From NCBI RefSeq assembly GCF_024498175.1, contig NZ_CP101823.1, positions 2,920,987 to 2,984,986 on the forward strand: a stretch of 64,000 nt of DNA, written 5' to 3'. Below, piece by piece: positions 16,895-34,793 of the stretch. The translations under genes and the position numbers were made by a program. The notes beneath the pieces are model-generated. The model was not told where the DNA came from, searched no databases, and was given only the letters and a program-made list of their open reading frames with translations. Source of the stretch: Haloplanus salinarum (GTDB lineage Archaea > Halobacteriota > Halobacteria > Halobacteriales > Haloferacaceae). Within the stretch, counting starts at the first letter, position 1; the number at the start of each line of letters is the position of its first letter.

Positions 16895-17536
16895 ATGACG
16901 ATACTCGTCCTCGACGACGAAGTACAGCCGGACTACCGGTATCTCGGGCCGGAGATCGAACGTCTCACGCCGGACGGCGAGTATCACGTGTACGCGGACG
17001 ATCCGGAGACCCCCGATCTGGACGTCTACGACGGCGTGATCATCAGCGGGAGCACCGCCAGCGTCTACGAGGAGGACCACGCGTTTATCGACCGGCAGCG
17101 CGACCTGGTGGCGTCGTGTCTCGACAGCGGAGTGCCGCTGTTGGGGATCTGTTTCGGTCACCAACTCGTCAACGACGCCCTCGGCGGACGGGTCGTGGAG
17201 GACCGACGCCGGGCGACGTTCGTCGGGATGGACGTGACGGCGCCGGACGACCCGGTCCTCGACGGCGTCGGCGACGTGGTGCCCGTCCTGCACGCCGACC
17301 TCGTCGTCGAGCCCGGTCGGGGGATGGAAACCATCGCGACGACCGACTACAACGACTACTTCTGTACCCGACACGAGTCGGCGCCGATCTGGACGGTGCA
17401 GTACCACCCCGAGTTCACCGAGCGCGTCGAGGACAACCCGAGCGACTGGTCGCGGGGCGGGTACGACTTCGCTGACTCGAACGCGACGGCGACGATCACC
17501 AACTTCGCCGCGGTCTGTGAGCGGCGGGCCGACTGA
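16895..17536 (+). CDS. Class I glutamine amidotransferase, possible gamma-glutamyl-GABA hydrolase (PuuD-like)
   Basis: 213 aa. The catalytic triad is visible: Cys86 in LLGICFGHQL, His171 and Glu173 in QYHPEF. The N-terminal VYDGVIISGSTASVY forms the oxyanion region. There is no synthetase domain, so it hydrolyses a gamma-glutamyl amide or serves a partner enzyme. Divergence from a PuuA-like ligase within a polyamine cluster suggests hydrolysis of gamma-glutamyl-GABA to GABA and glutamate. Other stand-alone GATase I proteins (GuaA-like) look similar, so the substrate is inferred. Its stop codon lies inside a palindromic repeat that has a second copy at 34.7 kb. Confidence 0.8.
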   Translation: MTILVLDDEVQPDYRYLGPEIERLTPDGEYHVYADDPETPDLDVYDGVIISGSTASVYEEDHAFIDRQRDLVASCLDSGVPLLGICFGHQLVNDALGGRVVEDRRRATFVGMDVTAPDDPVLDGVGDVVPVLHADLVVEPGRGMETIATTDYNDYFCTRHESAPIWTVQYHPEFTERVEDNPSDWSRGGYDFADSNATATITNFAAVCERRAD

Positions 17537-17548
17537 TACGGATTATTG

Positions 17549-18091
17549 GCCTTGTTGAAACCCTCAGGCAGTGATCGGTCTCAGTTGGTGTGCTGAATAC
17601 AGAGGCTGTATGCAGCACGTCCCGTTGACGCTATCTCTACCTAGGCCAGTCGGGTTCGTCGTTTCCCTACGTGGTCGGAAGGACAACAGCGTTCTCGATT
17701 CGACGCCCTACGGCCCAGCGTTTCGCGGGCACGTACTCATGCCCAGGACGGAGTAGACTGGACAGGAGCGAGTCGCTGCCGTTCCAAGCATGATGAGCGC
17801 AACGACACCGAGCGCCGGTGAGGCAAGAGCTGGCGCGGCGAGCTGCCCGACGAGAATCGCAAGGGAAAGCACTCCGGCGACTGCACCGACTATTGTCCGC
17901 ACTGATTTATCGGTGGCTCCGACATTGACGTCCATATTATGGAGTCGCGCTACTGTATGTTAACAATGCCTCGGTTGTGCACTATTCTTGCAAGACCCGT
18001 TCGGGTGCGTAACCACCGTCGGCCTACGTGACGGATACGCGCTCCCTATTCAGCACACAGTTCCTATCAGCCGTTGAGCGTTTCAACAGAG
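17549..18091 (-). mobile_element. 543-bp transposase-less insertion cassette carrying a DUF2892 gene
   Basis: The ends form an imperfect inverted repeat of about 50 bp. The conserved blocks are TGTTGAAAC-x-CTCA at the tip and GTGTGCTGAATA inside, in opposite orientation (left from 17549, right from 18091). Direct repeats ACGGATTATTG flank it (17538-17548 and 18092-18102) and look like an 11-bp target duplication. The related intergenic repeat at 34705-34793 has the same sequence uninterrupted (ACGGATTATTGTAAC), which gives an empty-site comparison. The only gene inside is DUF2892, on the minus strand with its own promoter; no transposase frame is present. It would need a transposase in trans, like a MITE or mobile insertion cassette. 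Confidence 0.75.
17708..17935 (-). CDS. DUF2892 (YgaP-like) small membrane protein
   Basis: 75 aa. After a short polar start (MDVNVGATDKSVR) come two hydrophobic segments (TIVGAVAGVLSLAILVGQLAA and GVVALIMLGTAATRSCPVY) and a final Cys pair in RSCPVYSVLGMSTCP. This is the DUF2892 pattern, a family often fused to or next to rhodaneses; no rhodanese gene is adjacent here. TTAACATA (about 17958-17968) on the minus strand lies 27 nt before the start, so the gene carries its own promoter inside the cassette. Its function is unknown, possibly linked to persulfide or membrane stress. Confidence 0.75.
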   Translation of the reverse strand: MDVNVGATDKSVRTIVGAVAGVLSLAILVGQLAAPALASPALGVVALIMLGTAATRSCPVYSVLGMSTCPRNAGP

Positions 18092-18102
18092 ACGGATTAT
18101 TG

Positions 18103-18174
18103 TAACGGTGTACCGGTGGTTCGCCGGACTGTCCTGGCGACCCACCGGTACTGACTTACGATACCCAGTATGAC
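18103..18174. repeat. Palindromic intergenic repeat, copy 1 (interrupted)
   Basis: Together with 17531-17548 this is one copy of a roughly 90-bp repeat, split by the cassette. It contains a long hairpin (ACCGGTGGTTCGCCGGA pairing with CCTGGCGACCCACCGGT). The whole interval lies between the stops of the convergent amidotransferase and agmatinase-like genes. Copy 2 (34705-34793) is about 85% identical and also fills a convergent intergenic region, with the repeat end again supplying a stop codon. It probably works as a bidirectional terminator or a REP-like element. Confidence 0.75.
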
Positions 18175-34704: not shown

Positions 34705-34793
34705 GGTCATACTGTTCATTGTAAGTCAGTGCCGGTGGTTCGCCAGGAGTCCGGCGAACCACCGGTGAACAGTTACAATAATCCGTATCAGTC
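34705..34793 (-). repeat. Palindromic intergenic repeat, copy 2 (intact)
   Basis: Read on the minus strand it runs from GACTGATACGGATTATTG through the hairpin arms ACCGGTGGTTCGCCGGA and CCTGGCGAACCACCGG to ACTGACTTACAATG. It is about 85% identical to copy 1 (17531-17548 plus 18103-18174), and it is uninterrupted at the point where copy 1 carries the cassette. It fills the gap between two convergent genes, and the GACTGA end supplies the stop of the minus-strand gene. It is probably a bidirectional terminator or REP-like unit. Confidence 0.75.

Follow-up and report, generated by a model that had tools for sequence, protein, structure and literature searches.

A transposase-less insertion cassette of Haloplanus salinarum that probably belongs to a group of cargo-exchanging IS5-family passenger transposons in haloarchaea

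Haloarchaea are known for heavy gene exchange, and the vehicles that carry single genes between their genomes are poorly defined. Among described elements, IS copies with passenger genes form a known kind, the transporter IS (tIS) (PMC3129680, PMC9330008), and mobile insertion cassettes (MICs) are known in bacteria (PMC3129680). For haloarchaea, the consulted part of a Haloquadratum survey gives the ISH2-type HqIRS32 as the only coding MITE there (PMC3119063). We analyzed an element within a 64,000-nucleotide stretch (the window) of the 3.45-Mb chromosome of Haloplanus salinarum and compared it with related loci in other Halobacteria. The element is very probably a transposase-less mobile insertion cassette, one of a group of haloarchaeal IS5-family transposons that carry passengers and exchange their cargo. 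Sequence comparison establishes that the end modules are shared, that insertions are flanked by 8-bp duplications, that some members bear a transposase and that, in one genome, an entire element occurs twice with the same cargo.

The window element and its insertion site

The element occupied positions 17548..18093 (546 bp, no strand assigned), with ends GGCC...GAGAC and modules common to 31 other cassettes. Its boundaries were taken from its relatives, whose termini start with GGCC, usually end with GAGCC and are flanked by an 8-bp duplication. When these termini (GGC...GCC) were applied to 17548-18093, GGATTATT lay on each side, at 17540..17547 (left copy) and 18094..18101 (right copy), both on the plus strand and identical at 8/8 positions; the right terminus, GAGAC, departed from the consensus GAGCC. 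The earlier note had claimed an 11-bp duplication. The flanks it saw do match, as ACGGATTATTG was found at both 17538-17548 and 18092-18102, but alignment of the relatives reduced the duplication to 8 bp, and the 11-bp reading arose because an extra AC and G (three bases) match beyond it. An 8-bp duplication is the best reading, the alternative being 10 bp with a shortened right end. The inverted ends described in the same note were real but longer than stated there, with an outer TGTTGAAAC plus an inner GTGTGCTGAATA at both ends. The sole supported gene was the passenger at 17708..17935 on the minus strand, which encodes a 75-aa YgaP-like transmembrane protein (PF11127, formerly DUF2892; Pfam E = 1e-16). 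No transposase was found in the element, so the initial description of a transposase-less cassette with a passenger held. A search of phage records gave no match to the window element.

The neighboring genes, named by inspecting their translations, were a class I amidotransferase-like gene upstream, ending at 17536, and an agmatinase-like gene on the opposite strand. The element interrupted a host palindromic repeat (consensus TSATACGGATTATTGTAAC...TTACAATAAACAGTATSA), of which the left part lay at 17534..17547 and the right part at 18094..18172, both on the plus strand, and its joined flanks rebuilt the start of this repeat, TGATACGGATTATTGTAAC. An uninterrupted copy of the same repeat was present on the minus strand at about 34705..34793 (also locus L041), as had been claimed, and the 8/8 GGATTATT flanks within the interrupted copy bear out a recent insertion into the repeat. 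The repeat itself is intergenic, palindromic, ~85 bp long and REP-like, with at least 57 chromosomal copies; a chromosome-wide search for its 15-base core ACGGATTATTGTAAC found 36 exact copies and a further 21 with one mismatch, and a reversed control gave none. In the congener G024 both neighboring genes were adjacent, with neither repeat nor element between them, so that the locus is empty there but does not provide an exact empty site. The same 543 bp (the element as first delimited) was not found at this locus in distant genera. Targeting of hairpin repeats as a general habit, which the first reading had included, was rejected as a family rule: the duplicated sequences of other members showed no obvious shared motif.

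End modules, transposase-bearing relatives and transposase-less cassettes

A search with the whole element against its relatives returned mostly 50-70-bp matches at either end, adjoining unrelated genes. The ends of the element are two different modules of ~60 bp, L and R, and not short repeats. Both contain an outer GGCYYTGTTGAAACCCTCA and an inner TGCTGAATACAGAG, with a spacing of 38 bp in L (consensus GGCCTTGTTGAAACCCTCAATCGGTGATAGGTTTCAG..G.CGTGCTGAATACAGAGCGCGTATC...CAC) and 33 bp in R (consensus GGCTCTGTTGAAACCCTCAGCA.CTGATAGGAA..GCGTGCTGAATACAGAGG.TG.AT.CAGCAC). The L-type module of the window element lay at 17548..17604 on the plus strand (GGCCTTGTTGAAACCCTCA...GTGATCGGTCTCAG...TGCTGAATACAGAG, 38-bp spacing) and the R-type module at 18042..18093 on the minus strand (GTCTCTGTTGAAACGCTCA...CTGATAGGAAC...TGCTGAATAGGGAG, 33-bp spacing). 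The strict pattern TGTTGAAACN(22-32)GTGCTGAATA was detected in 75/292 Halobacteria genomes, representing 33/77 genera, and its reversed control in 0. We also compared the inner arm of each end with its core. At R ends the arm was complementary to the core at ≥7/9 positions in 26/67 cases (control stretch, 1/67). At L ends the same threshold was reached in 24/102 cases (control, 6/102), and the idea of a hairpin under strict conservation was rejected for these modules. By this comparison the inner site is palindromic in part only. Its palindrome is variable as well as imperfect, most of all beside L modules, and may therefore not be the recombination substrate.

The earlier note had anticipated transposases between the same ends, and such partners were identified. 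Loci L116, L090 and L079 share the right end and carry an IS5-family transposase in the left module (NCBIfam NF033579, E = 4e-62). After the transposase stop codon lies GAGAGGAACGGACTGCTGAATACAGAGG, which resembles the inner half of R, so that R looks like a left module minus the transposase gene. Close relatives of the transposase were present in 108/292 genomes and fell into two subgroups by transposase length and inner sequence. Thirty-three copies could be delimited with both ends and a duplication (31 perfect), and all of these complete copies carried 322-2424 bp beyond the transposase (0/33 cargo-free). In these autonomous relatives a single pair of ends and a single duplication thus enclose both a transposase and an unrelated passenger. 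Only L198 and L206 shared cargo; they are separate insertions in one genome, each with its own duplication, and they indicate that the whole unit moves, cargo included. At L116 32-4160, a 2.7-kb transposase-bearing member interrupted an apparent multicopper oxidase gene. On the chromosome of the window, locus L129 2305-3850 (about 1.554 Mb) contained a frameshifted transposase pseudogene, then a cupin-like gene and the fused junction of two cassettes that have lost their outer ends. Since this pseudogene was the only cognate transposase found in the genome, the window copy is probably now immobile unless a transposase comes from outside.

Forty further regions were added to the first set, giving a sample of 66 facing end pairs. 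Thirty-two of these pairs were elements whose 8-bp flanks matched at 7 or 8 positions, compared with 4/990 matches at ≥7 of 8 bases when flanks were paired at random, and a chance origin of the matching duplications is therefore excluded. The 32 elements spanned 427-4977 bp, 28 of them had one L and one R module, and transposase was absent from all. A recognizable duplication was missing from roughly half of the facing end pairs and from many of the transposase copies inspected; these are probably old or rearranged. For solo ends in the own genome (L092, L093, L095 and L091 2598), the duplication search found no partners. Stacking was observed at L089 and at the pseudogene-bearing L129, each of which held two cargos in one array.

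The own chromosome carried a second cassette at L094, 1617 bp long with the duplication AACTGAAT. This cassette was intact, and its 431-aa protein, at L094 4190-5485 (about 1.069 Mb), matched the PADLOC candidate phage-defence family PDC-S54 (E = 4e-90). A 3.5-kb cassette with a perfect duplication at L088 772-4267 encoded a DUF6414 protein and an AAA ATPase that PADLOC classed as IetA-like, a possible mobile defence operon. At L115 4030-4137 the L and R modules were joined in a 108-bp element with no cargo and no clear duplication, possibly an empty cassette.

Cargo replacement, inversion and the explanations weighed

Cargo differed in nearly every copy, with one same-genome pair as the single exception. 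The families represented included type IV pilin, DUF7344, TehB-like methyltransferase, SnoaL, HD, GNAT, PAS/histidine kinase, formate/nitrite transporter with TrkA_C, phosphate permease, SRPBCC, Amphi-Trp, PDDEXK nuclease, AAA ATPase with DUF6414 (the ATPase matching PADLOC IetA), a HicA pair, Na/H exchanger, MgtE and HpcH aldolase. Most cargos comprised one or few genes with no evident common function. The earlier note described the element as MITE-like or as a mobile cassette; the cassette part of that description stands, while the different gene in nearly every copy and the exchange of cargo at fixed sites had escaped it.

The evidence for precise exchange comprised two module pairs and one cargo pair. 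Locus L079 (G091) and locus L163 (Halorussus halophilus plasmid NZ_CP044525) belong to different families. Their left modules differed by 2 mismatches over 946 bp (a nested 140-bp element of L079 excluded) and their right modules were identical (60/60 bp), with unrelated cargos of 0.7 kb and 2.3 kb, respectively. The second module pair, L134 and L167, was 97.4% identical over 886 bp and had one mismatch in the right 67 bp, again with unrelated cargo. In the cargo pair, the transposase-less L246 (G288, a third family) carried the 2.3-kb cargo of L163 at 98.3%; this likeness started exactly at the left TGCTGAATA and stopped at the right TATTCAGCA, and the modules differed beyond. Near-identical modules with unrelated cargo, together with the same cargo between different modules, require recent exchange, and comparison of these pairs shows cargo apparently replaced at fixed points, with breakpoints in the inner TGCTGAATA sites. 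In the RefSeq-derived annotation of L163, the IS5 transposase and the cargo genes stand separately and no element is marked. The nested 140-bp element of L079 (3254-3393; ends GGCCTTGTTTAGACGC...AACAAGGC) lay exactly at the module-cargo boundary, with a duplication of approximately 9 bp (CAGAGGGTG).

A second copy of the window cargo, about 92-93% identical, was identified on the same chromosome at L091, and this copy sits at the same place in the congener G111 (L096). At L091/L096 the L module lay on the upstream side of the gene and the R module downstream, and both had their usual inner arms. The window element differed in that both arms were swapped: the arm GCTGTATGCAGCACG next to the L module (17605..17622, plus strand) is of the kind that normally adjoins R modules, its native order being that of L091/L096, and the arm CGCGTATCCGTCACG next to the R module (18024..18041, minus strand) is of the kind that normally adjoins L modules. 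By this alignment the DUF2892 gene is inverted relative to the end modules when compared with the second copy in the same genome. The end modules were exchanged while the inner arms stayed with the gene, which places the break at or beside TGCTGAATA. Both arms were also swapped in L117 and L229. Among elements with duplications that could be classed by their arms, about 12 were native, 3 had both arms swapped and one had a single-arm swap; numbers this small are to be read with care, and the paired swaps point to inversion between the two inverted inner sites. A relative of the DUF2892 gene (87% aa) at L130 2797-3021 (G046) was chromosomal and had no cassette ends; it is a possible source gene or decayed cassette.

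A full member of the group consists of a left terminal module with the IS5 transposase, an inner site TGCTGAATACAGAG, one or more passengers, a second inner site and a right module of ~60 bp, and cassettes keep the short R module, which resembles a left module with the transposase removed. The shared ends and the duplication length suggest that the cassette is mobilized in trans by an IS5 transposase, which would bind the L and R modules. Cargo may be exchanged by recombination at the inner sites of co-resident elements, or alternatively by template switching at these sites during repair after excision.

A serious contender, if somewhat short of an even chance, is that cargo exchange is plain homologous recombination in the shared modules, with inner sites that merely mark where homology ends. 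The modules are long enough for it (about 900 bp left, 60 bp right), breakpoints where homology stops are what it predicts, and much the same pattern could result. However, the L079 and L163 modules showed no mosaic up to the boundary, the L163 and L246 modules share little past the inner site (about 14-27 bp for a crossover), and the inverted cargo of the window element, L117 and L229 requires a crossover between short inner cores. More tentatively, the group may be a haloarchaeal integron-like cassette system built on IS5, in which partly palindromic inner sites would be the points of swap, inversion and stacking. As an equally tentative part of this proposal, a left module with or without transposase and a short right module would have spread single genes across the class. 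A dedicated site-specific recombinase, or the transposase itself, could act on the inner palindromes in the style of integron cassettes. Such an enzyme would agree with the precise boundaries that unrelated cargos have at a conserved motif, with the inversions in which the two arms are swapped together, with the stacked cassettes of L089 and L129 and with the empty 108-bp L-R element at L115, but no recombinase gene was noticed in linkage at the loci read and the arms beside L modules are poorly palindromic; we consider it unlikely. It is highly improbable that the element is an ordinary MITE or cassette of a normal IS, with cargo gained once, old diversity and no movement between modules: bacteria are known to have such cassettes without a transposase (PMC3129680), but left modules identical at 944/946 positions and right modules at 60/60 enclose unrelated cargo here, and the same cargo (98%) occurs between different modules. 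Finally, an ISH2-type element of Halobacterium, a likeness that the earlier note drew only from size and to which a single ORF can be added, can be given almost no weight, since the element matches IS5-type modules in many genera and the plasmid search gave no full-length match, the best plasmid matches being other L/R-module sequences plus a DUF2892 cassette, none covering 80%.

Comparison with known systems

The preferred reading, a transposase-less cassette of a cargo-exchanging IS5-family group, offers a concrete vehicle for single-gene transfer. Roughly a quarter to a third of the Halobacteria genomes sampled contain the ends or the transposase of the group, whose passengers include transporters, signalling proteins, candidate phage-defence genes and a HicA toxin-antitoxin pair. 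If the integron-like proposal is true, such a system would distribute genes for transport, regulation, toxin-antitoxin pairs and defence throughout the class. In the full-text literature searched, with most subscription papers and ISfinder outside its scope, we found no description of passenger-carrying haloarchaeal IS5 elements, of IS5 copies that nearly all carry different passengers or of inner sites at which cargo is exchanged, and the group is apparently large and undescribed. A DDE transposon that exchanges its cargo at fixed sites would represent a mechanism undescribed in that literature.

Like a tIS, a transposase-bearing member has one transposase, IS-type ends and a duplication, plus genes unrelated to transposition; it differs in that a passenger was present in 33/33 complete copies, nearly all different, and was apparently replaced at fixed inner sites. 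The cassettes resemble MICs in the lack of a transposase, the IS-like ends, the one or few passengers and the presumed mobilization in trans, but have two asymmetric modules (L and R) with inner sites, many unrelated cargos, inversion and stacking. The transposase is of the IS5 family (NF033579), as in other haloarchaeal IS5 elements, and an 8-bp duplication is typical of the ISH1 subgroup of IS5. In contrast, a different IS5 element on the same chromosome (L129 about 1365-2295; ends GCTCTGTTGAAGAG) had no passenger, which shows that not all haloarchaeal IS5 elements carry cargo. The MITEs, PATEs and ISH2-type elements of Haloquadratum are likewise transposase-free haloarchaeal elements moved in trans, whereas L/R modules and cargo exchange are not described in the consulted part of that survey (PMC3119063). 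In its modular cargo, its arrays and perhaps its partly palindromic boundary sites the group recalls integron cassettes, a resemblance and not membership: no integron integrase or attI is known here from the loci read, and the cargo is enclosed in a DDE transposon, with which it moves.
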